From Candidatus Nitrosotalea sp. TS (GTDB lineage: Archaea; Thermoproteota; Nitrososphaeria; Nitrososphaerales; Nitrosopumilaceae), in assembly GCF_011319465.1 (NCBI RefSeq), contig NZ_RCMB01000019.1, positions 1-62,902 on the forward strand: 62,902 nt of DNA, given 5' to 3'. Below are positions 3,369-62,670 of this stretch, piece by piece. The position numbers and the translations under genes are program-made. The notes beneath the pieces are model-generated. The model did no database searches, was not told the DNA's origin, and saw only the letters and a program-made list of their open reading frames with translations. Positions within the stretch are counted from its first letter, which is position 1, and each line of letters begins with the position of its first letter.

Positions 3369-6075
3369 TTTCCAAGAATGAATTGCTCAGCAGCAAGAAG
3401 TGCGTCTTTTATCTTAAGCATGTCTTTTCCGCCTCCCTGACCAAATGTGTCTTTTCCACCGCCTGAACCTCCGAGTATTTTGGCTACGTCTTTGACTAGA
3501 TCTCCAGCTTTCTTAGTATTTACAGCATCTATGCCGGAGAATGCCACTATGCGAATTGAGCCATTTTTTATAATCAGAGCACAGTAGATGAGGGATTTAT
3601 CAAGATTGACTGCTTGTTCACCGACTGCTATGTGATATTCGTCGTCAAGTTCTTCTTCGACTGTGATAAATAACTTGACTCTTCCAAGAATTTTTGCTTG
3701 AGCGATTGCAGACTTTGCAGAAGATTCTGCGGTTCTTTTCACTATTTGTTTGACCTTCTTTTTTGCGTCCTCTCCCGTCTTTGACAACATGTTCAAATGA
3801 TTCTAGAACTTTTTCCTTGCTTGAACCAAGGGATTTTACAATCTGTGATATTTTCTTATCTTGATTCTGTGTATACTTGAGCGCTGCCTCTCCAGAAACA
3901 AATTCCAATCTGACCACCCCGTCTTGAATCCTTTCTGCTTTTGTAATTTTGATTAGGCCCAATTCGCCTGTTTTATTGACATGGGTTCCACCACATGCTT
4001 CAACGTCAAGGCCCTTCTATGTTTACAATTCTGACTAATTTTACCGGCACAACTCCGCCTTGATATATTCTAAATCCATATTTCTGCTCTGCCTCTCCAC
4101 GTTCAAATTCCTTGATAAGAATTGGTATATCTTTTCGAATCGTAAGATTTGCAAGGTCTTCTATCTTCATTATCTCCTCTTCTGTGAGGTTTGAATGGTG
4201 AGTAATGTCAAGTCTGGCATAATCTTGTTCCTTGAATGCTGAATGTTGCCAGATCCAAGAACCCAAAGTGTTTCTTGCAGATGCGTTAAGAACATGAGTA
4301 CTTGTATGATGTCGTGTTATACCATAACGTCTGGCAGAATCTATCTTGCATTTTACAATTTCTCCCTCCCAGTGGGGCTCCTCCTCTTGTTTCATGAATT
4401 ACAATATTGCCATGTTTATTCACATCGACAACATCATAATTTCCAATTTTACCATGATCTGGTTCTTGACCTCCTCCTCTTGGATAAAATAATGTTTGAT
4501 CAAGTATGACATGCTTTCCATCTAAGACTTTGAGCACTCTTGGCTTCGAATTCATGTGGTTCCTCTTTATAATATAGTAAATCTGTGTCTGGAATTCTAT
4601 CCAAATTCAATTGTACCGTTTTTTCAGTCTTCTCCGATTGATGCAAATCAGATAATTTCTCGTAAAATGTAGATGGAATCTCTGAAATGATCTGTGTTTC
4701 TTTTAGAAAATCAGGCGTTATAGCCGTCAGACTCGTACAGTCGAATCAAGTCATCTACAGATAATTTCTTGTTTTGTGATTTTAACATGTTTGAAATGTT
4801 TGTCATTCTAACCCGTGATTCCTTATAACGATCCTTTTCAATCCTAACTATTGTTTTTACATCCTTTCTAGTTTCCTCAAGCTCGCGGTATGTGGATTTT
4901 AGGTAATCTACATGAAGGTCTATTAGATCATCAAGATCAAAATTCCAACCAAATCTATCCATTGTTGCCAGAGTGCGTCTCAGTAGCATTCTTAGATTGT
5001 ATCCTCCACCTACATTACTTGGCAATGCACCGTCTGATATCGCAAATATCAGAGTTCTTAGATGGTCTGCAATGAGGTAGATTCCCTCTAATGGGGAGAT
5101 GATTTTGTCCATTTTCACATTATCGATTCCTACCGCTAACGCAGCACTTTTTCTTGCTATTGATATGTCTGAAGACTCGGATAATGTCTTGGCAATAGCT
5201 CTGAAATATTTTGATATAATGTCAGAATCCGAGTCTATGCCTATCTTTTCTATCATGTGTTTTGTTATGGGCCCAAAACAGCAATCATAGGCAGTTGGAG
5301 TTCCCATCGTAATCCACGCAAATCGTTCAAGGCCTGCTCCCATGTCTATGATTTTTTGGTCTAACACAGAATAGTTTTCCAAATCTCCCTGAAATTCAGT
5401 AAACACTGCATTTCCAAGTTCCAGTCCTCGTACAAAATATTCTAGTGATGATCCAAATGAGCCTCCACCAGCCCATACATCTTCAACAAAAACTATCTCT
5501 TCTTTGTTAATTCCAAATTTGTCAGTAAGTAGTCTAAAATCAAGTTCAACACATTTGTCCTTCCAATAACCTTGTGAGTTTGGTATGCTGTGTTGACCAA
5601 TCATGCAAAAACTTGAAAAATGTCTGCCTGTTACTCCAACGTTTTCTATGTCTTTGAATCTAAGACATGTTTGTGGCACAACCAAAGGATTTGCTGGAAA
5701 TTCAAAGACTACCTTGGAACCCATTACTCTCTGAAAATCAACTATTGAAGCAATTGTAAAATAAAGATCATCTCTCCATCTGCATACTACTGGATATCTG
5801 CTCACTGACTTGTGTCCATTATCTACAAAAAAAGATTCGACTTCCTTCCAAGCTTGTGTGTAATCAAATCTTTTCCTGGTGGGAGGATCCCCTATGAAGG
5901 AATAACTATTTTCTATATGATCAGGACAAAGATTCTGTCCGTCATTTAATACCCAGAAATATCGACCACACTTGGAACAAGACTTTCTCTTGAATCCTTC
6001 CTTCTCAAAAAGCTCCACCTTGTAATACCTATTAGGGTCCGATGAAAACTTGGCAAGAATCTGACCCTTGTCCAT
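3365..6075 (-). CDS. alaS: Alanyl-tRNA synthetase, archaeal type (interrupted by frameshifts)
   Basis: Charges tRNA-Ala and hydrolyses Ser/Gly-tRNA-Ala. The N-terminus has the archaeal zinc-ribbon-like extension (C33, C36, C50, H53), then the class II catalytic core. The editing domain shows HHTSTH and the CGGTH zinc motif, and the C-terminal oligomerisation domain has the glycine-rich [15 protein letters not shown] segment. Span is about 900 residues, normal for archaea. Five one-base surpluses break the frame: about 4720, about 4541, the C4 run near 4383, CCC at 4012-4014 and about 3790. Frame arithmetic across the five fragments agrees exactly with five single-base insertions. A TATA-like box 27 nt upstream supports a leaderless ATG start. 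First gene of the alaS-leuS unit. Confidence 0.95.
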
Positions 6076-6097
6076 TTCACAAGTTTTTGTCCTGATG

Positions 6098-6106
6098 GAT
6101 ATTAAG
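6098..6106 (-). promoter_or_regulatory. TATA-like box for alaS
   Basis: On the minus strand this reads CTTAATATC, centred about 27 nt upstream of the alaS ATG. That spacing predicts transcription starting at the start codon. Confidence 0.5.
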
Positions 6107-6123
6107 CATTCTGAAGCAACACA

Positions 6124-6131
6124 TTAAATAT
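6124..6131 (+). promoter_or_regulatory. TATA-like box for the gene at 6153
   Basis: The sequence TTAAATAT is centred about 26 nt before the ATG at 6153. This is the spacing for a leaderless archaeal transcript. It is divergent from the alaS promoter within the same 77-bp gap. Confidence 0.5.
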
Positions 6132-6152
6132 GATCTTTTTTGAGAATTTCTT

Positions 6153-6665
6153 ATGTTCGTATTTGAAAAGAAGGGCTGGAAAGAGGGAGACTATGTTTTT
6201 GCTTCCAAGCAAAATGGCGATTATAAAGACATTGTAGTAGGTATCGTAACAGGAATAGAAAATTCAAAAATTGGAGTAAATGGTATCATGATAAATCCAG
6301 TTGGTCTGAAGAACAAGGTTTCTCAAGGAAAGGCAGGTCCGCAATCAGAACAGATACTGAAAGATCCTACCTCAAAAGAGATCATCTTTGCCTTAATTTA
6401 CAGAGTTGAACATGATAACTTTACGGGAATTTTTGATACAAGTACTGACTATGTGGAAAAACTACACAAAAACATTTACGGTATTATCACTGGATGGGTC
6501 AGAGAATCCGTTCCAGAGTTGATAAACAATGTACTTTCTTTACCTGATGGACCAGATAAGGATCAGGCAAAAAGGGTTTTGAAGCAAAGGATGGATACGC
6601 TATATGATAAAGACCTCAAGCGATACATGTATTCTATTTGTAGAAGTCTTAAGATCCTCAATTAG
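6153..6665 (+). CDS. Conserved hypothetical protein, 170 aa
   Basis: I do not recognise the family. The first 50 residues are rich in beta-forming hydrophobics and glycine ([21 protein letters not shown]), suggesting a small barrel. A mainly helical C-terminal half ends in a basic [12 protein letters not shown] segment. There is no signal peptide, membrane span or metal motif. It is transcribed alone between alaS and the P1 stalk gene with its own TATA box. Codon use and the well-placed promoter argue that it is a real gene. Confidence 0.75.
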
Positions 6666-6710
6666 CTAATTCACTGCACGGGATATTTTTTGTAAGCGAG
6701 AATCTCCATA

Positions 6711-6720
6711 GTTTTATATT
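6711..6720 (+). promoter_or_regulatory. TATA-like box for ribosomal protein P1
   Basis: GTTTTATATT lies about 28 nt before the ATG at 6746. It supports that internal ATG over the in-frame upstream start at 6728. Confidence 0.5.
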
Positions 6721-6745
6721 ATGGCTCTTGCAAATTTCGTTTACA

Positions 6746-7045
6746 ATGGAATATGTATACGCTGCATTGCTTTTGCACAAGGAAAAGAAGGAAATCAATG
6801 AGGCAAATATATCTAGTATAATCAAGGCCTCAGGAGCTACAGTAAATGAAGCTCAAGTAAAAGCACTCATAGCAGCACTCGCTGATGTGGACATTGAAGA
6901 GGCAATCAAAGCTGCACCAGTTGCAGTCGCAGCCGCACCAGCAGCAGCCGCAGGTGGTGCAAAAGAAGAAAAGAAAGAGGCTGAGGTACCGGCTGCAAAG
7001 ACTGAAGAGCAGGCAATGGAAGGCCTTTCAGCACTGTTCGGTTAA
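6746..7045 (+). CDS. rpl12: Ribosomal protein P1 (L12ae) of the large-subunit stalk
   Basis: Acidic stalk protein that binds P0 (L10) and recruits elongation-factor GTPases. The N-terminal helical dimerisation domain begins [17 protein letters not shown]. It is followed by an Ala-rich hinge ([14 protein letters not shown]), a charged linker and the conserved C-terminal tail GLSALFG. Length is 99 aa, typical of archaea. The start is chosen at the ATG matching the family N-terminus and the promoter spacing. Unlike the usual archaeal L11-L1-L10-L12 order, this gene stands alone on the plus strand, while L10, L1 and L11 lie downstream on the minus strand. Confidence 0.95.
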
Positions 7046-7080
7046 ATCTGTTATTTCTATTTCCTTTTTTGTAATTTTCT
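7046..7080 (+). terminator. T-rich terminator after P1
   Basis: Several T runs, including TTTCC followed by six Ts, directly follow the stop codon. Oligo-T tracts of this kind are the usual intrinsic termination signal in archaea. Confidence 0.4.
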
Positions 7081-7116
7081 AAAGATTATTTACTATCTTA
7101 TCTAATACCTTGTAAT

Positions 7117-7752
7117 TTGATAGATCTCTCATTGTCTGTTCAGGCTACCGTTCTTGCCTTGGATCTTTTTGGAACTATGGCTTTTGCTGTTACTGGTGCA
7201 TTCAAGGCAATTGAACACAAAGCTGACATTGTTGGCATCATTATTCTTGCAACAATAACTGGTGTAGCTGGAGGGACTCTAAGAGATATAGTGATGGGGC
7301 ATTTTCCGCCGCATTCCATATCTGATCCTTATTACGTGATCATAACTGTAACAACTGGTTTTGTCATATTCTTTCTATATAAAAAAATACAAAAACACTG
7401 GAATCTATTTTTAAAATTTGATGCAATAGGACTTGGTGTTTTTACTGCTATTGGTGCAACATTTGCATACGAAGCCTATGGTATGAATTTCCTTGCTATT
7501 GCTATGGCAGGTATGGTAACTGCTATTGGGGGTGGAATCTTGCGAGACATGTTCGTAAATGAAGTGCCTATGGTATTTGTAAAAGAGCTTTATGCCTCTG
7601 CAAGTTTCTTGGGAGTCTTGGTTTTCTATATTGTACTCAGTATTGATTCCAATCTGGGGATTGCAACCATAGCCTCCATTGTGGTTACAACTGTGCTCAG
7701 ACTTGTAGCCATGAAACACAACTGGAATTTACCAAAGGCACGTGAAAAGTAA
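7117..7752 (+). CDS. TRIC/UPF0126 (YadS-like) membrane channel protein
   Basis: A 211-aa integral membrane protein with about seven hydrophobic helices arranged as two homologous halves. The repeated signatures GVAGGTLRDIVMG (about residues 48-60) and AIGGGILRDMFVNEVP (about residues 136-151) are diagnostic of the UPF0126 family, whose bacterial and archaeal members include TRIC-type cation channels and a proposed glycine transporter. Start is TTG, encoding MIDLSLSVQ. It is convergent with the L10 gene, 9 bp away. The transported substrate cannot be told from sequence. Confidence 0.85.
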   Translation: MIDLSLSVQATVLALDLFGTMAFAVTGAFKAIEHKADIVGIIILATITGVAGGTLRDIVMGHFPPHSISDPYYVIITVTTGFVIFFLYKKIQKHWNLFLKFDAIGLGVFTAIGATFAYEAYGMNFLAIAMAGMVTAIGGGILRDMFVNEVPMVFVKELYASASFLGVLVFYIVLSIDSNLGIATIASIVVTTVLRLVAMKHNWNLPKAREK

Positions 7753-7761
7753 ATTTCTTGT

Positions 7762-8628
7762 TTACTGTGAGGTGTAGTTCTTTAGCTTGCCTGTCAGTGC
7801 AGTGGCTTGGGCGTGAGCTTTCTGAAGTGTCTGCTTCTTTGTTTCTTCAGTAAGATAGCCTGATTCTGTAGCAAGTGATCTGGCATGTTGTGCAGCTCTC
7901 GCAAGAATTGCACTGACGTTTTCTTTTGTGATATAGCCTATCTCAATAGATAGCGACATTGCTTCTTGGTGTGCTTTTGCAAACGCCTCTCTGTATTTTT
8001 CTACGTCAATTAACAGCTCTTCTTGATTGTATACTATATTTTCCTCCATAGCTGCGTTTAGAATAATTCCTGCCTCTACCGGTTTGACATCAAGCTTGCT
8101 AAGAAGGGTTGCAAGTTTTGTAGAAATTACATCACCTTTCTTTGCAGCTGTAGAATCTTTAGTTATCCAGACTGTTCCTTGATCAATCTTTGTAGCAACT
8201 CCAGCCTCCTTAAAGTCAGTAAGGATTGGACCTGGAGTTATTCCTGTGTTACCTGCCTTTATTATGACATCTATGCTTGCTTTGTCTCCACCTCTTGCTG
8301 CTAACATTATCTTGTTTTTTCCAAGTAGGATGTTTAGTTTGTGTGGACTCATGTTTGTGAACATTAAGACACATTGGCCAACTAGCTTGTCGATCATCTT
8401 TTCAATAGCAGGCATTTTCAGTGTTGCAAGCGCTTTTTGTGCTACCTTGTCTTTAATGCTGATAATCTCAACATCATTTTTGAATTTCTTTCTTAGTGGT
8501 AATAGCTGGGAAGATCTAACCTTTTCCATTCGCACTAGTGCTACTACTTTGTATTTTTTTGGAAGTTCCTGAACCTGTTGATACATCTGTGCTTTCTTTT
8601 GAGGATATTTTGTTCTGTTTTGATGCAT
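7762..8628 (-). CDS. rpl10: Ribosomal protein L10 (P0)
   Basis: Anchors the stalk on 23S rRNA and carries P1 dimers. The N-terminal RNA-binding domain includes YKVVALVRMEKVRSSQL, and the helical spine near the end (residues about 220-288) has repeated alanine-rich segments that would bind P1. The 288-aa product ends TGKLKNYTSQ and lacks the acidic GLGALFG-type tail that many archaeal P0 proteins share with P1. No frameshift explains the absence, because the stop is followed at once by the convergent neighbour. Starts 1 bp after the L1 stop, in the L1-L10 operon. Confidence 0.95.
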   Translation of the reverse strand: MHQNRTKYPQKKAQMYQQVQELPKKYKVVALVRMEKVRSSQLLPLRKKFKNDVEIISIKDKVAQKALATLKMPAIEKMIDKLVGQCVLMFTNMSPHKLNILLGKNKIMLAARGGDKASIDVIIKAGNTGITPGPILTDFKEAGVATKIDQGTVWITKDSTAAKKGDVISTKLATLLSKLDVKPVEAGIILNAAMEENIVYNQEELLIDVEKYREAFAKAHQEAMSLSIEIGYITKENVSAILARAAQHARSLATESGYLTEETKKQTLQKAHAQATALTGKLKNYTSQ

Positions 8629-8629
8629 C

Positions 8630-9283
8630 TTACTTTGCTACCGCCTGTGGTTTGATTGTTTTACCCATTGTGGTTTTTACCATGACTTTTTTGATGTTTC
8701 TATCACCGCTTGGAAGTTTTTTCTCAATGGTGCTGATCACTGCATTTGCGTTAGCAGCTAAATCATCATCTGCCATGGATTCATCGCCTATCTTGCATGC
8801 TAGTGAAAGAGAATTTCTTAGTCTTACTCTTATTGAAGATCTGAATCTTTCCAATATTGCATCTATGGGTGCATTAAATGGTACTGGAGTAGGCATTTTT
8901 CCTCTGGGACCCATGAATTGACCTAATGTCTTACCAACATTAGCCATGAGTTGAGTATCTGCAAGAAAGAAATCATATCCATTAATCAGCTTGCGAGATT
9001 CTCTTTTGTTTGTGCCAATTTGCGTCAGCTGTGTTCCGTCTACAACCTTGTCAGCATTTGCATTTTTGGCCTTTAGTCCAAGATCGCCTGAAGCAATCAC
9101 GCATACTGATGCTGGTTGGTTTAATTTTTTGGGTAACTGGACTGTCTCATTGATGGCAAATCCTTTCTTAACGTCAATATCCTTGAAGACCATGATTAGC
9201 TCTAGAGATTGCTTGAATTTTCTCTCCTTTTGGTTCTTTTTAGCTTCGACTATCATCTGTGATATCTGGGACTCGTTGATCAT
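8630..9283 (-). CDS. rpl1: Ribosomal protein L1
   Basis: Forms the mobile L1 stalk at the E site and, in archaea as in bacteria, can regulate its own mRNA. The 217-aa length and segments such as GPRGKMPTPVPF and the C-terminal KKVMVKTTMGKTIK match archaeal uL1. First gene of the L1-L10 unit, with a TATA-like box 28 nt upstream of the ATG. L11, which normally precedes it directly, is separated by an opposite-strand Lrp/AsnC gene. Confidence 0.96.
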   Translation of the reverse strand: MINESQISQMIVEAKKNQKERKFKQSLELIMVFKDIDVKKGFAINETVQLPKKLNQPASVCVIASGDLGLKAKNANADKVVDGTQLTQIGTNKRESRKLINGYDFFLADTQLMANVGKTLGQFMGPRGKMPTPVPFNAPIDAILERFRSSIRVRLRNSLSLACKIGDESMADDDLAANANAVISTIEKKLPSGDRNIKKVMVKTTMGKTIKPQAVAK

Positions 9284-54669: not shown

Positions 54670-56697
54670 ATGCTGATGCATAGTCTACCAACTCCTTTAA
54701 CACAATTCCTATGGAATATGTTCATCGGAATAGCCCTTGTAATCACTCTATACACCTGTAATTTCTATTATCTAGTTTTCCTGGCACGACAAAAAAAGAA
54801 AACAAAATCTATCGAGTTAAAAGAAATCCCAACAGTTACAATCCAACTTCCAATTTATAATGAAAAATACGTCGCGGCCAGATTGGTAAATGCTGTCTGT
54901 GCACAAGACTATCCAAAAGAAAAACTGTGTATCCAAGTATTGGATGATTCTGATGATGATACCTTCAATATTCTGGAAGATCTAGTTGACGATTACAAAA
55001 AGAAAGGATTCGATATAACTCATGTAAGGCGGGGAAATCGAAAAGGGTACAAAGCGGGGGCACTTCGTCATGCAATGAGCTTTACAAAAGGTGACTTTGT
55101 CGCCATATTTGACGCAGATTTTATTCCGCCTTCGTGGTTTCTAAAAAGGGCACTTTCGTATTTTTGCAAGCCTGAGATAGGTCTAGTGCAATGTAGATGG
55201 GGGCACGTTAATGAAAAATATTCAGCTTTAACGATGGCACAAGCACTAAGCTTGGATTTTCATTTTCTCATAGAACAAAAGGCAAAAAGTAACTCTCATT
55301 TATTTATGAATTTCAATGGTACTGCTGGCGTGTGGAGAAGAGAGTGTATTGAAGACTCTGGGGGATGGCACACTGCAACACTAGTGGAAGATCTGGATCT
55401 TAGTTATAGGGCACAGATGAAAGGCTGGAAATGCGTATTCATACCTGACATTGTAGTAGATGCTGAACTTCCCGTACAAATGAATGCGGCAAAGAGACAA
55501 CAATTCAGGTGGGCAAAAGGATCAATTCAATGTGCAATAAAATTATTGGGAGATGTTGCAATAAAGAGAATCCCCGTTGAGACAAAGATCCAAGCCTTTG
55601 TTCAACTTACAAGACACATATCATTTCCATTAATGCTGATACAATTCTTAATTCTTCCAATATTACTAGCTTCAAAAATCAATCTGTATGTAATCAGTGG
55701 ACTGCCAGCCATTACAATAATGGCATATCTTGCTATGGGACCTCTGGTGTATATTATGATAATTCGAGACTTGTATCATGCAAGTTGGAAGTCTAAGGTA
55801 CTGTCATATTTTTACATGATCTTCTATTCTGCAGGCATGTCAGTGAATAATACCGTAGCTGTCTTTGATGCGCTCTTTGGAAAGAAGAATGAATTTTTGC
55901 GTACTCCAAAGTTTGGAATAATAAATAAGAATGATGATTGGAGAGACAAAGCTTACGCTTTACCTTTCACAAAAACTACATTGCTTGAGATATTCTTTGG
56001 CGTATATGGAGTCATAGGAATATTTGTTGCGATCTTTTCAAACAATCCCATTTTTGCTCCAATAATAGGAATTCAGGTTGTAGGATTTTTCTATATAGCG
56101 TATCTTAGCATATCTCATTCAACATTTAAAAAAGGCAAATCAAGAAATATGCCTGTTACATCAGGTACTCAAAGAATGGCAAATACATACTACAAGCTTG
56201 CAATGGCAGGAATTATGGGACTCATAGTCTTAGGTGTAGTGATGGCTTTTGAGGAATATGGTACCACAATATACCCGCTTGACCAATCTAGAGGGCTTTT
56301 GTCAAGAATTCAGGCTACATCTGACCCGCAAACCATTCACAACGATCTGAAAGATATAATGATGCTTCTCCCAACTCATGGTAATCCAGTATGGATATTT
56401 CCTACTGACGACACAGACTTTGGATTAATGCAAGGAGACCTACAGACTATGTTAGGAACCGTAGATAAAGTTGCAAGCACATCTCCTGACAGTGCAGCAT
56501 TTCATGCCGGAATGCTAAATATTCATACGCAAGCTTCAGCAATTTCATTTAGTCTAATTGATGCTACACCATACATGTATGTGAGCATATCAAACATTTT
56601 GTTTGGTTGCATATGGGTAGCTGTGATAATTGGAATATTTGCAATGTTGAAGAGAAAACGAGAACGTCTAAGAGCTTACGATTTGGAAGAGACCTAG
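54670..56697 (+). CDS. Cellulose-synthase-like family 2 glycosyltransferase
   Basis: 675-aa membrane synthase for a beta-linked polysaccharide or glycan. One N-terminal membrane helix, then the GT-A domain with LDDSDDD (91-97), FDAD (147-150), LVED (238-241) and QQFRW (277-281). About four membrane helices follow (about 305-480). An extracytoplasmic segment (about 540-620) precedes a last membrane helix (ILFGCIWVAVIIGIFAML). The D, DxD, ED, QxxRW set marks a processive enzyme. No c-di-GMP PilZ domain is present. Product unknown; surface polysaccharide is inferred. Convergent with the coiled-coil gene, overlapping 4 bp. Confidence 0.9.
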   Translation: MLMHSLPTPLTQFLWNMFIGIALVITLYTCNFYYLVFLARQKKKTKSIELKEIPTVTIQLPIYNEKYVAARLVNAVCAQDYPKEKLCIQVLDDSDDDTFNILEDLVDDYKKKGFDITHVRRGNRKGYKAGALRHAMSFTKGDFVAIFDADFIPPSWFLKRALSYFCKPEIGLVQCRWGHVNEKYSALTMAQALSLDFHFLIEQKAKSNSHLFMNFNGTAGVWRRECIEDSGGWHTATLVEDLDLSYRAQMKGWKCVFIPDIVVDAELPVQMNAAKRQQFRWAKGSIQCAIKLLGDVAIKRIPVETKIQAFVQLTRHISFPLMLIQFLILPILLASKINLYVISGLPAITIMAYLAMGPLVYIMIIRDLYHASWKSKVLSYFYMIFYSAGMSVNNTVAVFDALFGKKNEFLRTPKFGIINKNDDWRDKAYALPFTKTTLLEIFFGVYGVIGIFVAIFSNNPIFAPIIGIQVVGFFYIAYLSISHSTFKKGKSRNMPVTSGTQRMANTYYKLAMAGIMGLIVLGVVMAFEEYGTTIYPLDQSRGLLSRIQATSDPQTIHNDLKDIMMLLPTHGNPVWIFPTDDTDFGLMQGDLQTMLGTVDKVASTSPDSAAFHAGMLNIHTQASAISFSLIDATPYMYVSISNILFGCIWVAVIIGIFAMLKRKRERLRAYDLEET

Positions 56698-58028
56698 GAA
56701 ATATTTAGCTCATGTCTTACTTCATCTACCGCTCTAATTCCAAATAGATCGCGGATTTGTTCCATTCTGATTGACTCTTTTACCAAATCAGCTCCGAGCT
56801 CACTTATCAAAAGTCTAAAGACATCTGTAAATCTGATTTCCCACCTGTCAGAACAATCCATGATCTTTGATATGCTCCATTGTTTTACTTCAAGAGGAAG
56901 TGGCATCTTTGATTCCACTTCGATAGAAAGTCTATCAAATAGATTTACCATATCTGCAGTCTGAGCTACCATTTTTTGTATGTCCTCTAACGTGCCATAT
57001 TTTGATTCTGATCTCATACGTATGTTAGACTGAAACTCAGAAAGACGGAGCAAACCCATGACTTCCCTCGAAGTACTCTGCGAGGTCTTGTGGGTCACAT
57101 CTCTAATCTCATTTAATTGCTGAGAAATCTCGTATGTCTTTTTATTAAATTCGGATATGGAAGATGAGTTTCTATTGAGTAATTCTGCAAAATCTGACAT
57201 TTTCTCTTCGAGATCCTTTGTTTTGCCTAGCACATTGTCCTTGAAATTGCTAAATTCAGCATTTACATTTCTAATGTCATTACCTAACACATCAAGAGAA
57301 TCTGTTTTCTTTATCAACGAGTTAATCTCTGTGCTTACGTTTCTAATCTGAGAATCAAGACCAAAGATTGGCTCTGTCTTTGTGACGATTCCGTCAATTT
57401 CAGTTTTTATGTTTGATATGCTTTCTTCAAGATGTTGCATTTTTTCAGTTTTTTCAGAGATTTCCTTTGTACTCTTCTTTACCTCATCAATTTCAGAGCC
57501 AATGTTTGATAATGACTCTGCTCTGCTTGTAACGCTCTTTATCTCCTCGCGTATCTTCTCGGTCTTTTCTGATACGTGCATTATCATCTTGGTGTTATTT
57601 CTAATAGAGTCTAAATTGTCTGCTAAATTCTGCATGAGCTTGTTGGTATCGGGAATATTCTCTTGTTTTTGATGAATCTTGCTAACTTGATCCTGAAGAC
57701 GATTTATCTGATCATTGATTTTCTCTATGATGTTTGAATGTGCTTTTACCTGGCTAATTCCATGGAAGAGTCTTTGTGTATCTTCTTCAAGAATGGTTAT
57801 CTGTCTTGAACTTTTCTGAATCTGATCTAGTGAAGAATTTACTCCATCTATCATGCTTTTTAATGAGATTAGTATTTTTTGATTTTCAGTGAAAATTTTG
57901 GACATTGTTTTCACTTCTGATGCCAAAACCTTGGTTGCCTCAGAAATTGAGCTCATCTTTTTGAGAACATCTGCAGTACGATCTTTGGTTGATCCCTTGC
58001 TGTTCTCAGTCCTTTTTGTCTGCTTCAC
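56694..58028 (-). CDS. Long coiled-coil protein with C-terminal globular domain
   Basis: 444 aa, no signal peptide or membrane helix. Residues about 20-330 are an almost continuous coiled coil (heptads rich in Ile/Leu with Lys/Glu/Ser), containing repeated units of the form SEKTEKIREEI and KTDSLDVLGNDI. The last 110 residues are globular (KQWSISKIMDCSDRWEIRF, RLLISELGADLVKESIRMEQ). I know no characterised family with this plan. A cytoskeletal, chromosome-associated or scaffold role is plausible, but nothing in the sequence decides. Confidence 0.75.
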   Translation of the reverse strand: MKQTKRTENSKGSTKDRTADVLKKMSSISEATKVLASEVKTMSKIFTENQKILISLKSMIDGVNSSLDQIQKSSRQITILEEDTQRLFHGISQVKAHSNIIEKINDQINRLQDQVSKIHQKQENIPDTNKLMQNLADNLDSIRNNTKMIMHVSEKTEKIREEIKSVTSRAESLSNIGSEIDEVKKSTKEISEKTEKMQHLEESISNIKTEIDGIVTKTEPIFGLDSQIRNVSTEINSLIKKTDSLDVLGNDIRNVNAEFSNFKDNVLGKTKDLEEKMSDFAELLNRNSSSISEFNKKTYEISQQLNEIRDVTHKTSQSTSREVMGLLRLSEFQSNIRMRSESKYGTLEDIQKMVAQTADMVNLFDRLSIEVESKMPLPLEVKQWSISKIMDCSDRWEIRFTDVFRLLISELGADLVKESIRMEQIRDLFGIRAVDEVRHELNIS

Positions 58029-58737: not shown

Positions 58738-59678
58738 ATGATACAAAGCGTGTTTCTCATTATGCAACGAGACTTACAATTAACAGTAAGAATGGTAATT
58801 AGTTTTCTTGCACTCACGCTAATCTACCTTGTATTTTTGAGCTTCATTGCCATGTACTTTGGCTTGGGTATCCTGCCAATCTCAATAATTGCCGGATTGA
58901 TGATTGGGGCACAATGGTACTTTTCTGCTAAGCATAGTTCTTTGGAGCACAGGAACTAAACTTGTAACTAGGGAAGAATATCCAGTTTTACATGAAATAG
59001 TAGAAAGATTAACGCAAAAGGCAAATCTTCCAAAGCCCAGAGTAGGTATCATGCCAAGTGATATACCAAATGCATTTGCTACAGGCAAGGGTCCAAAGAG
59101 CTCTGTAGTAGTCGTGAGTTTGGGAATAATGAAAATTCTAGACAAGGACGAACTTGAGGGTGTCCTATCTCATGAAATCACTCACATAAAACATCAGAGA
59201 TGTTACAATAATCACCCTTGCAAGTTTGTTCTCTACTATTGCTTGGTATCTCATGCAATCCTCAATGTTCAGTTCAATGTGGGGTGGATATGGTTCGGGA
59301 TACGGAGGAAGGCAGCAGCAAGGAGGGAATCTCTTTTTGGTCATTATTGTAGCTGCAATAGTGTGGTTGCTAAGTTTCCTAGTGATCCGAGCCATATCTA
59401 GATACAGGGAATTTGCTGCTGACAGAGGTGGGGCTCTACTTACGGGTCAACCAATGAATCTATCTCGTGCATTGATGAAGATAGAAGGAAGAGTAAAGGT
59501 AGCACCAAAGCAGGGACTTCAAAAAATGGAGGGAATGAATGCATTTTTCATAGTACCGGCAATATCAGGTCAGACTATTGCAAGGTTTTTTTCTACACAT
59601 CCTCCATTAGAGGAGCGCATCAAGCGTTTAATGGAAATTGAACGACAACTTCGTGACTCTGATACGGCAGGCATCTAA
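58738..59678 (+). CDS. htpX: HtpX-family membrane zinc metalloprotease (two frameshifts)
   Basis: M48 peptidase that degrades damaged membrane proteins. Two N-terminal membrane helices, the HEITH zinc motif (LSHEITHIKH), two further helices flanking a Gly/Gln-rich loop (GGYGSGYGGRQQQGG), and the third ligand region YREFAADRGGALLTG. Surplus bases near 58933 and 59197 split it; restored joins are SAKIVLWSTGTKLV and HIKH-DVTIITLASLF. About 312 aa. TTATAAC 24-26 nt upstream supports a leaderless ATG. Confidence 0.92.
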
Positions 59679-59931: not shown

Positions 59932-60519
59932 ATGAGAGTTCTGTACATGACTGGGGAAATTCTGCACAGGATAGAGTCTGCAGGAATAGACGGTATTAAA
60001 AAGGCAGACCTCAAGAAAGCATTTGGTAAAGAATGCGATGACATACTTGAGAATCTAAGGCAAAAAGACAAAGTCTTCATCGAGAAAAAGGGAGTTGCCT
60101 ATTTCGTCTGGACTAGGGACAATTACATTTTACATCTGACAGAAAATGATACAAAATTCAAACTCATGCTCAATATGGTAATTGGTGTAAGCCATTCTGT
60201 TGCAAGGCTAAAAGAGCATACTCAAAACCTCCGGGAAGACATGGAAAGAATTTCTTTACAAGAAAATTTGCCGCAAAATGTTGATTTTGAGAACGTATTC
60301 AACAAGTGTATCAGTGAGGCAGGTACCTCTATAGGATGGACTCCATTCTCAAAGGTAAGAGAAAAAGTATGCGAGACACAGAATCTCTCAAAAGAAAAAT
60401 TTTACTCGCTCGCAAGTGACCTAGTTGAGAGGCATCGTGAGAGATATGAGGTCTCATCAGGTGGCCAAGAAGGTATCATCATTCGTGGAATGGTTCATGG
60501 TTTTGTGAGGAATGTCTAA
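59932..60519 (+). CDS. Protein with winged-helix-like domains at both ends, partner of the ATPase
   Basis: 195 aa. Residues 1-65 resemble a winged helix (TGEILHRIESAGIDGIKKAD, then DDILENLRQKDKVFIEKKGV). A helical linker (about 85-125) leads to a second winged-helix-like module (about 125-195: TSIGWTPFSKVREKVCETQN, LVERHRERYEVSSGG). I do not recognise a named family. The stop codon overlaps the next start as TAATG, so the two proteins are made together and probably form one complex. A DNA- or protein-binding adaptor for the ATPase is inferred. Confidence 0.75.
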   Translation: MRVLYMTGEILHRIESAGIDGIKKADLKKAFGKECDDILENLRQKDKVFIEKKGVAYFVWTRDNYILHLTENDTKFKLMLNMVIGVSHSVARLKEHTQNLREDMERISLQENLPQNVDFENVFNKCISEAGTSIGWTPFSKVREKVCETQNLSKEKFYSLASDLVERHRERYEVSSGGQEGIIIRGMVHGFVRNV

Positions 60520-62126
60520 TGTATGCATATGGATTAGAAAACAACCCCATATCCCAGTCAGTCCTACACCACTGAAAAAGATGCAAAGATACTTGGAGGG
60601 AAAAGACACAAAGAAGCAAAATCTGCCATAGTTGAATGTATGAAAGAACTAAATGGCAAAGTACAAGGAAGAGATTCTGCAGATAATGACTTTAGAGTAA
60701 TAACGGTAATCCAAGATGTAGGTTCTGGGAAGACTCACTTGGCACTACATATAAAAAATTTAAAAGGACGCTACAATGCAGAATGCTCCTTTGTTGATTT
60801 GTCTACCATATCGCCCAAGACCATGTCAAGCATTTACAATGCAATAATCAAAGGATTTGACAATGACTTTTTTGTTCAATTAAGAACAAAATTCCTAGTA
60901 TACATAAGAGAAAGAGCAGAACAGGGTGATAACTCTGCAAAGAAAGCCATCAACTATACTGTGATAAACAGGCTAACTGGATTGACAATTAAAGAAAAGG
61001 TAGAAGACATTACAACTGGAAAAGAACATGTTTCTGATGAAAATCTAAAACAATTTCTTATTCAGAGATTCAATTATCATCGAAGCCGCATTGATAAGAA
61101 GTGTTGTAACAAACTCCTTTGAAAACATACAAAACCTTGAGGAATTGCTTGGTATGATTTCAGCCATATCAAAATTTACACATAGGTTTTTGGGGAAAAT
61201 TACACTTCTTGAAATAGATGAATTTGATGGCAATAAGGATTCGATAGAATTTGTAAAGGGAATGATAAACTCTCACATTCCTGCGTGCACATTGCTTTTG
61301 ATTTCAACTCCATCAGGGATATGCAGAAGTACAAAACACCAATCCATCTGTTTTTGATAGGCTTGAGAAAGCAAACTACAAGATTGATCTGGTAGGCTCA
61401 AACTCTAAAGATGAACTTGCAGAAATTGCCGTTGAGTACATAAAACACAATGACAAACACGGTAAGCTTGGAGTCAAGTCAGAGGAGGAACTGATCGATA
61501 AAATCCAAGCACTCTACGAGGAATTTCCAGAATTTAGAAGTGTTAGATCTGTGATAAACATACTGTATCACGCAATGGAAAAATCAGAAGAGTCGGGTCT
61601 TGATAAAATTGATGAAAATGTAATTGATGATGCCATAAAACAAACATATCCTGGACTAAAAGTGCGAGGAAGTATAATGGACATACCAATATCTGATTTT
61701 ATTGCAATAAGAAAAATCTGCAACGAGCCATCTTCAGAAAAAGATCTCAAAGAGGCAGTGCACAACTTGGCAAATCTTGTACATGAAATGGGAGGTATAT
61801 GTAAACTTGAGAAACAGAATTTGTCCCTAGATGCCCTGTATCAGGATTCATTTGGAGCCAAAGTAGGGGTAGCCATAATAACAAACTCAAACAATGATCA
61901 TAATATCGATCAAATCTCTAACATATCAAAATCGGCAGTTGTGGATAAATTAGTAATCTTGACTAGCCAAAAGATCCAAAGTCCCTACAACGCGACAATA
62001 GTAAATGTAGACAAGTCAAAGATGATTGATCTGATTTATTTCAACAACAAGTATATTGGCAAGAAAATTGCTGAATCTGATAACGAACGAGCAGAAATAC
62101 TGGCAAAAACTCTCTGCATCATCTAA
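60519..62126 (+). CDS. P-loop (AAA-like) ATPase of unknown function (three frameshifts)
   Basis: About 535 aa after correction. The N-terminus YGLENNPYPS precedes Walker A DVGSGKTHLALHI (about residues 68-80), and Walker B is LLEIDEFDGNKD. SVFDRLEKANYKIDL and RSVRSVINILYHAMEK follow, like sensor-2/lid helices. A C-terminal alpha/beta region (VGVAIITNSNNDHNID, KLVILTSQKI) ends it. Surplus bases in CCCC at 60545-60548, AA at 61072-61073 and GGG at 61316-61318 break the frame; each repair gives a smooth protein. It superficially resembles Orc1/Cdc6 and STAND ATPases but lacks a clear Orc1 winged helix. Coupled to the winged-helix gene upstream. Confidence 0.8.
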
Positions 62127-62174: not shown

Positions 62175-62330
62175 ATGGCAGACACTGAGCTGGAAGAACT
62201 TCTGGCCCAACGACACAAGGATGTTACGCTTTTTGATTTTGAAGGAAAAAAGGTACCCTGTATCATAATGGAAGAGAAAAGATTTGATGATGTCATGAAG
62301 GCAATAGCTGGCAAAACCAGTCTCGGTTGA
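62175..62330 (+). CDS. Small hypothetical protein, 51 aa
   Basis: ATG-started, with LEELLAQRHKDVTLFDFEGK then PCIIMEEKRFDDVMKAI; an acidic amphipathic helix, a short beta hairpin and a second helix. No family is recognised. A well-placed TATA box supports expression. Confidence 0.55.
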   Translation: MADTELEELLAQRHKDVTLFDFEGKKVPCIIMEEKRFDDVMKAIAGKTSLG

Positions 62331-62346
62331 AACCAATCTTAATATC

Positions 62347-62595
62347 TTGCAGGATGGACTGGGTCATGTTTTTGTTAAAATGACATTACATTTTTCGCAA
62401 GAAATTGAAGAAAAAGTATTATTGTATGCAAACGAATCTTTTGATTTCTTTGAAGCCTTAACTGAGACATCTATGTTGGCTCTGTCTTCTCCTCATTCAG
62501 AATATGGTCGCTCTAATGTATTTATGATCCAACTTCCTAAACCTGAAAAAACAGCAGACGCTTTAGAAATAATCAAGAAAGGTCTTAAGGTGTAA
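62347..62595 (+). CDS. Small hypothetical protein, about 70-82 aa
   Basis: Unrecognised. The core is MTLHFSQEIEEKVLLYANES, then SFDFFEALTETSMLALSS, ending KTADALEIIKKGLKV; mixed alpha/beta. The longest frame starts at TTG 62347, but a TATA-like TTAATATC at 62338-62345 would put the transcript start near 62366, which favours the in-frame ATG at 62380 as the real start. It ends 1 bp before the tRNA-Gly gene on the opposite strand. Confidence 0.55.
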   Translation: MQDGLGHVFVKMTLHFSQEIEEKVLLYANESFDFFEALTETSMLALSSPHSEYGRSNVFMIQLPKPEKTADALEIIKKGLKV

Positions 62596-62596
62596 A

Positions 62597-62670
62597 TGCG
62601 GTTGCCGGGATTTGAACCCGGGTCGCAGAATTGGCAATCCCGCATATTAACCAAGCTGTACTACAACCGC
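62597..62670 (-). tRNA. tRNA-Gly (GCC)
   Basis: Acceptor GCGGTTG/CAACCGC with discriminator A, anticodon stem CGGGA/TTCTG, and loop TTGCCAA giving anticodon GCC. The T arm is CCGGG-TTCAAAT-CCCGG. No intron, and CCA is not encoded. The D stem is short (GTA/TAT) but acceptable. Confidence 0.93.

Follow-up and report, generated by a model that had tools for sequence, protein, structure and literature searches.

What do the two overlapping genes at positions 59932-62126 of a contig from Candidatus Nitrosotalea sp. TS encode, and do they belong to a system that has already been characterised? A preliminary description of the window (the whole stretch of 62,902 nucleotides that was analysed, to which all coordinates refer unless stated otherwise) had viewed them as an operon of a double winged-helix adaptor and a P-loop ATPase. 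We examined the integrity of the pair, its domains, its distribution in the phylum and its gene neighbourhoods, and used these data to weigh several possible functions.

Organization of the gene pair

The unit consists of the following elements:

59932-60519, plus strand: adaptor gene, 195 aa, intact; an open reading frame with a homologue in 30 of the 37 genomes of the genus, this genome included
60517-60521, plus strand: TAATG stop/start overlap
60519-62126, plus strand: AAA+ ATPase gene, its frame interrupted in the window by three +1 insertions (the closest relative encodes 534 aa)

The TAA of the adaptor gene occupies 60517-60519 and the ATG of the ATPase gene 60519-60521, in agreement with the overlap described previously; from this overlap it had been deduced that the two proteins are made together. 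RNA folding of the overlap region revealed nothing special (z 0.55). The closest intact ATPase relative, a 534-aa protein from a Nitrosopumilaceae metagenome assembly (locus L066), was 89.5% identical to the window gene at the DNA level, and the adaptors of the two loci were 93% identical. Compared to L066, the window ATPase contained single-base insertions at three sites (near 60549, 61081 and 61316) and was otherwise free of indels, which accounts for the three frameshifts noted earlier. Differences were concentrated at codon position 3, both in the ATPase (121 of 168 differences from L066) and in the adaptor (42 of 58 differences from its closest relative). This excess indicates purifying selection on both genes and excludes chance open reading frames. 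The two-gene unit is thereby confirmed as real.

The neighbouring gene of an M48 (HtpX-like) peptidase (58738-59678) was also split over several frames. The broken ATPase frame is therefore likely to stem from indel errors made in assembly, not from decay of the gene. The genome that carries the window is 70.9% complete and consists of 24 contigs.

An AAA+ ATPase with an ORC/Cdc6-like predicted fold

Three motifs could be located in the ATPase gene:

60721-60735, plus strand: Walker A, GSGKT
61211-61228, plus strand: Walker B region, EIDEFD
61353-61379, plus strand: FDRLEKANY, containing the putative arginine finger (R280 of L066)

In an alignment of 61 ammonia-oxidiser sequences, G70, K71 and T72 (Walker A), D233 and E234 (Walker B), R280 and R342 (L066 numbering) were each present in all 61 rows, giving the residue pattern of AAA+ P-loop ATPases; R280 is presumably the arginine finger by analogy with other AAA+ proteins. 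The clear Walker motifs and N-terminal segment of the preliminary description were thus borne out, as Walker A (GSGKTH), Walker B (DE) and an N-terminal NP segment were conserved or invariant across the 61 rows. Among 20 ammonia-oxidiser ATPases compared with Pfam, AAA_22, matched by all 20 rows, gave the best score (E 1.6e-4), and weak similarity to the Cdc6 lid was observed in 8 of them (best E 0.038).

The structural model of the ATPase had a mean pLDDT of 83. Its best Foldseek matches in the PDB were Aeropyrum ORC2 (E 1.2e-5) and Sulfolobus Cdc6/Orc1 (E 1.3e-4), with low TM-scores (0.3-0.45) for the whole multidomain model. A fold search of a viral library retrieved mostly AAA+ proteins of a generic kind, together with weak matches to entries for RecB-type proteins and restriction endonucleases. 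According to the predicted structure, the protein is an AAA+ ATPase whose fold is closest to that of ORC/Cdc6.

The same 20 sequences matched no NCBIfam family (best match E 0.05) and none of the known defence systems in PADLOC (2023). Remote homologues of the ATPase gave weak, mostly P-loop matches in the PADLOC scan, the best being to mad8 (3.4e-7), and PDB sequence-profile searches returned P-loop or chance matches only.

The winged-helix adaptor

The adaptor could be divided into three parts:

59932-60147, plus strand: N-terminal winged-helix domain (AlphaFold2 pLDDT 84-96; Foldseek)
60151-60258, plus strand: helical spacer, variable in length between lineages
60286-60516, plus strand: tentative winged-helix-like C-terminal module, ending in a conserved GGxEGxxxRGxxHG motif (pLDDT 53-88)

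The AlphaFold2 model of the whole adaptor (pLDDT 80, pTM 0.43) begins with the N-terminal winged helix, continues in a long helix and closes with a helical module that includes a hairpin. The N-terminal domain has both the helix-turn-helix and the beta-hairpin wing of a winged helix. The helix-helix-helix-hairpin arrangement of the C-terminal module is tentatively read from the model as winged-helix-like. Thus, where winged helices had been proposed at both ends, the N-terminal one is well supported and the C-terminal one is tentative. Foldseek matches of the adaptor included chain 8iue_P of an RNA polymerase III complex (E 4.4e-4) and ScpB and MarR-type proteins (E 0.01-0.02). Adaptors of 406-419 aa with a longer middle region were present in three Nitrosocaldus-type loci. 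In Pfam, B-block_TFIIIC was weakly matched by 6 of 21 adaptor rows. Other Pfam matches were set aside: Vac_Fusion, LPD13 and similar weak ones were regarded as due to chance, and those to Apolipoprotein and others (best E 8.6e-11) were attributed to the composition of rows with long coils.

Neither protein had a confident match to a characterised pair, in Pfam, NCBIfam, PADLOC and PDB searches of the ATPase and in Pfam and PDB searches of the adaptor, consistent with the earlier statement that no nameable system fits. In the literature searched, from which most subscription papers are absent, we found no description of the pair.

Distribution and pairing

An ATPase-alignment scan of named genomes (titles Nitrosotalea, Nitrosotenuis, Nitrosopumilus, Nitrososphaera, Nitrosocosmicus, Nitrosocaldus or broader) yielded 112 loci, of which the best 80 were kept. 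Among these 80, the adaptor was directly upstream of the ATPase at 67 by rule, with a gap of -1 or -4 in 44 of the 67 pairs, and at one more (L070) by eye, where a longer start call had masked it from the rule. The rest were near a contig end (5 loci), had no adaptor (6) or had no intact ATPase reading frame (1). All six adaptor-less loci were titled Nitrosopumilus. Even at E 1, no adaptor was detected in any of the seven Nitrosopumilus-type genomes with the ATPase (these six and G424; eight handles, as G320 and G466 are the same genome), while two control genomes were positive. This suggests that the ATPase can stand alone in these organisms. Both genes were absent from two 99% complete genomes of the window's own genus (G022 and G034).

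Across the phylum, a profile of the ATPase (A1) detected it in 41 of 397 genomes, seven of these via remote homologues; genus g27 had it in 2 of 12 genomes among the matches listed. An adaptor profile that included remote members matched 95 of 397 genomes, some of its weakest matches being partial or in other contexts. The ATPase was widespread in two further lineages, the order of genome G108 (41 of 45 genomes) and family f36 (29 of 31 genomes), which we take to be Thermoproteales and Sulfolobales, respectively. In f36 the adaptor was directly upstream at 39 of 39 places inspected, out of 42 strong ATPase matches (G415, G389 and the first copy of G458 are left out of this count), and in the order of G108 the same held for 11 of 12 loci drawn from the ATPase list, with the remaining one at a contig end; for many of the loci in both counts, adaptor matches were known beforehand. 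Comparison of the ammonia-oxidiser and f36 ATPase profiles (A3 and A7, with no shared rows) gave a probability of 98.3% and an E-value of 1.8e-14, with the AAA+ part as well as the C-terminal domain aligned. A second hhalign comparison (A4 and A6) is partly circular, as A6 includes ammonia-oxidiser rows. As remote homologues, the pair also reaches other lineages of the phylum, probably Sulfolobales and Thermoproteales. Conservation of the pair in relatives therefore holds for ammonia oxidisers and extends beyond Nitrososphaerota, but is not universal, given the adaptor-less Nitrosopumilus-type genomes. Viral contigs, phage records and plasmid records contained no relatives, in searches that reach mainly close relatives.

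A nuclease-like C-terminal domain with a lost triad

The C-terminal part of the ATPase, which the preliminary description had called an alpha/beta domain that could not be assigned, gave one further feature:

61719-62123 (approximate bounds), plus strand: PD-(D/E)XK-like domain, catalytic residues lost (topology, motif and profile comparison)

The model agreed with the alpha/beta character and suggested an assignment. In the whole-protein model of the ATPase, the order of elements (H405-422, E428-430, E438-441, E447-453, H458-471 and E476-481) is compatible with the alpha-beta-beta-beta-alpha-beta core of PD-(D/E)XK nucleases, and the domain reads as a PD-(D/E)XK nuclease-like one. As no profile-library match exceeded its cut-off, this assignment rests on the motif, the topology and weak NERD and Mrr hints, i.e., NERD matches in 3 of 17 sequences (best E 0.024) and a Mrr_cat match in locus L147 (E 0.002), all below cut-off. 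A PDB sequence search with this domain gave nothing meaningful.

In ammonia oxidisers, the first Asp of the triad was present in 60 of 61 rows, the (D/E) position in 0 of 61 and the Lys in 0 of 61, a pattern that does not correspond to an active nuclease. One ammonia-oxidiser copy outside these 61 rows (L154, positions 7374-8999 of that locus) had a C-terminal domain decayed to low complexity and had kept the pair. The f36 sequences fell into two groups, whose labels were assigned after inspection of the sequences. The D...(D/E)xK triad was complete in 15 of 15 patchily distributed f36 paralogues, as well as in L146 and L195, and at 0 of 23 distinct places in a syntenic f36 clade (L189 and L253 are one place and were counted once). 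The deepest member of this clade, L194, has D, D and R at the three positions. The triad was also incomplete in three further f36 ATPases (G415, G389 and the first copy of G458). ATPases of families f27 and f38 are approximately 250-280 aa long and end before the nuclease-like domain.

On the tree, the distinction between a live triad and a dead or absent one corresponds to four changes, with an absent domain scored as dead and L194 excluded; the trees were built mainly on the AAA+ core and lid and contain flagged long branches that may join falsely. Should the live state be the ancestral one, this implies at least four losses of the nuclease. As judged by sequence motifs, the probable nuclease triad has been lost repeatedly across the family.

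Gene neighbourhoods

Among 79 ammonia-oxidiser loci, genes near the pair encoded a conserved ~140-aa protein at 59, a glycosyltransferase at 43 and a coiled-coil protein at 30; MsrB and the M48 peptidase were further neighbours. The coiled-coil family was directly upstream of the adaptor in two Nitrosotenuis loci (L096 and L101). We considered these neighbours as a possible pathway clue and rejected them, as they look like ordinary synteny and suggest no pathway. In the window, the coiled-coil protein, whose C-terminal part is conserved, is encoded at 56694-58028 on the minus strand. The gene of the ~140-aa protein (62175-62595) is split over frames, and a relative's copy of it has no Pfam match; a tRNA-Gly (gcc) gene lies just 3' of it on the minus strand (62597-62670).

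Other lineages had different neighbours. In genus g66, GINS and then MCM followed the ATPase in 5 of 5 genomes (by Pfam in L151, by BLAST cluster in the others); the adaptor was visible in four of these, whereas in the fifth the contig begins within the ATPase gene. This linkage was absent from 7 further f38 loci, from 7 f27 loci and from every f36 locus fetched. An endonuclease III-type gene was upstream in 5 of 7 f27 loci (Pfam on one), and a photolyase gene adjoined the pair in both g75 genomes (Pfam on one). At least two neighbour families were common with another locus of the same group at 20 of 24 nuclease-dead f36 loci, compared to 4 of 15 loci of the live group. A stable neighbourhood of the dead clade and a shifting one of the live group are as expected of a core and a mobile form, respectively.

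Several single loci had a defence-like context. One live copy (L199) adjoined a Cas3-like helicase. In L196 (positions 4627-7847), a divergent winged-helix protein with a weak match to the adaptor profile was located near a possible ATPase and a SIR2-domain gene. In L197 (positions 6375-8349), from a g27 genome, a weak adaptor-profile match was accompanied by an ATPase matching Pfam BrxC_BrxD (26.1 bits, cut-off 22.2).

Comparison with known systems

Orc1/Cdc6 initiators are similar to the ATPase in AAA+ fold and motifs, in the weak Cdc6-lid similarity and as its best PDB fold matches. However, the Orc1/Cdc6 initiator family TIGR02928 was matched by none of the 20 ammonia-oxidiser rows, and the remote homologue L146 scored 16.8 bits against it (cut-off 181.3). 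Where Orc1/Cdc6 proteins have a winged helix C-terminal to the AAA+ lid, the ATPase model has the nuclease-like alpha/beta domain, and the winged helices are found in a separate protein. The idea that the pair is the genome's own Cdc6 was rejected: canonical Orc1/Cdc6 scored over the cut-off in addition to the pair in 15 of 15 genomes tested, so the pair is no replacement for it.

A second likeness is to BrxC/BrxD of BREX, in which, according to parts of PMC12839542, an ORC/Cdc6-like ATPase is combined with wHTH modules; remote homologues of our ATPase also have weak BrxD/BrxC similarity. In contrast, ammonia-oxidiser ATPases matched no BREX profile in Pfam, NCBIfam and PADLOC scans, the winged helices are encoded by a second gene, and the ATPase has 534 aa compared to the 1200-1300 residues given for BrxC in the same parts of that paper. 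Another relative by description alone is arCOG03166, an AAA+ ATPase fused to HTH and RecB nuclease domains, which a section of PMC4158269 tabulates as likely defence or plasmid. It has the same three domain types, but these are fused in one protein, whereas here the winged helices are encoded by a gene of their own and the nuclease residues are gone. Finally, MuB/TnsC/IstB-type ATPases resemble the ATPase in that a MuB filament was at Foldseek rank 8 and remote homologues weakly matched IS21 helper ATPases; unlike them, the pair has no recognised transposase partner in a conserved position and no match in phage or plasmid records.

Possible functions of the pair

The reading that we tentatively prefer, at slightly less than an even chance, is a DNA-loaded ORC-like switch ATPase with a double winged-helix adaptor, which probably acts in replication or repair and probably descends from a nuclease-armed, defence-like system. 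The adaptor would bind DNA via its winged helices, as their predicted fold suggests, with the helical spacer setting the distance between them, and, as the gene pairing suggests, would recruit the ATPase. In its ATP-bound state, the ATPase, whose motifs are in place, may load onto DNA as an oligomer and act as a switch. The PD-(D/E)XK-like domain, with its catalytic residues lost in ammonia oxidisers, may serve as a docking or DNA-binding surface instead of a nuclease. The complex could then help to replicate or repair the chromosome, perhaps by bringing in the MCM helicase or restarting it, and the nuclease-competent paralogues would probably be the older, invader-directed form. This reading is based on the invariant ATPase motifs, the ORC2 and Cdc6/Orc1 fold matches and the directly upstream adaptor. 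Its link to replication comes mainly from one genus, g66, with GINS and MCM after the ATPase, and the endonuclease III-type and photolyase genes adjoining some loci agree with replication or repair. The distribution of complete and incomplete triads, the steadier neighbourhood of the dead f36 clade and the canonical Orc1/Cdc6 found besides the pair also speak for it. On the other hand, the ammonia-oxidiser neighbours are no replication genes, there are lineages that live without the ATPase (as the A1 profile count and the two nearly complete genomes of the genus indicate), and the adaptor is missing from the Nitrosopumilus-type genomes. The low TM-scores and the PD-(D/E)XK call without a match over cut-off also count against it. 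The preliminary description had suggested a DNA-loaded switch ATPase with an adaptor, and this interpretation as a whole is partly supported, through the ORC-like AAA+ fold and the winged-helix partner.

Defence is a rival to be taken seriously, especially for the nuclease-competent copies, because, as parts of PMC12839542 report, ORC/Cdc6 ATPases, wHTH proteins and nucleases recur together in anti-invader systems. The winged-helix protein would be a sensor with which the ORC-like ATPase marks or traps foreign DNA, and the nuclease-dead form would use another effector or a steric block. The patchy occurrence of the nuclease-competent f36 paralogues, 11 of 15 of which have at most one neighbour family in common with another locus of their group, is consistent with such a role, as are the copy beside the Cas3-like helicase and the distant adaptor-profile matches beside the SIR2-domain gene and the BrxC_BrxD-matching ATPase. 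However, the 20 ammonia-oxidiser ATPases scanned had no PADLOC match, the dead form follows clades and has a stable neighbourhood, and no relative was detected in viral contigs, phage or plasmid records by searches that reach mainly close relatives. We regard defence as rather unlikely for the pair.

The winged helices could also point to a DNA-damage or transcription regulator, with the adaptor providing promoter specificity. An ORC-like regulator has a precedent in the non-initiator Orc1-2 of Sulfolobus, as described in part of PMC9738581, and in Foldseek the adaptor winged helices resembled repressors of the MarR and SmtB types as well as chains from RNA polymerase III and TFIIIC complexes; in Pfam there were the weak B-block_TFIIIC matches. 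Yet the neighbours are variable and unrelated, and an inherited nuclease-fold domain is not expected in a plain regulator; we consider this role improbable. A factor of chromosome organisation or segregation, in which the adaptor would be a kleisin/ScpB-type bridge and the ATPase its loader, is very improbable: ScpB was at rank 2 among the adaptor Foldseek matches and the spacer varies greatly in length, but the ScpB match had an E-value of only 0.01 and a TM-score of 0.27, and no SMC gene was recognised among the neighbours inspected by eye.

A bolder form of the preferred replication or repair reading, which we consider unlikely, is that the pair is an undescribed, phylum-wide DNA-loading machine apart from Orc1/Cdc6. 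It would have arisen from a nuclease-armed anti-invader system and been recruited to chromosomal replication or repair on several independent occasions, in every case with the nuclease killed or discarded, and would act on or with MCM-GINS.

Machines are commonly loaded onto DNA by ORC-like ATPases that work with winged-helix DNA readers. With live as well as dead nuclease versions in a single family, this conserved archaeal pair would allow clade-by-clade tracing of how a defence-like device possibly turned chromosomal. The pair also appears testable, as genome G136, which we take to be that of the tractable organism Sulfolobus acidocaldarius, holds a single copy that is nuclease-dead by motif.
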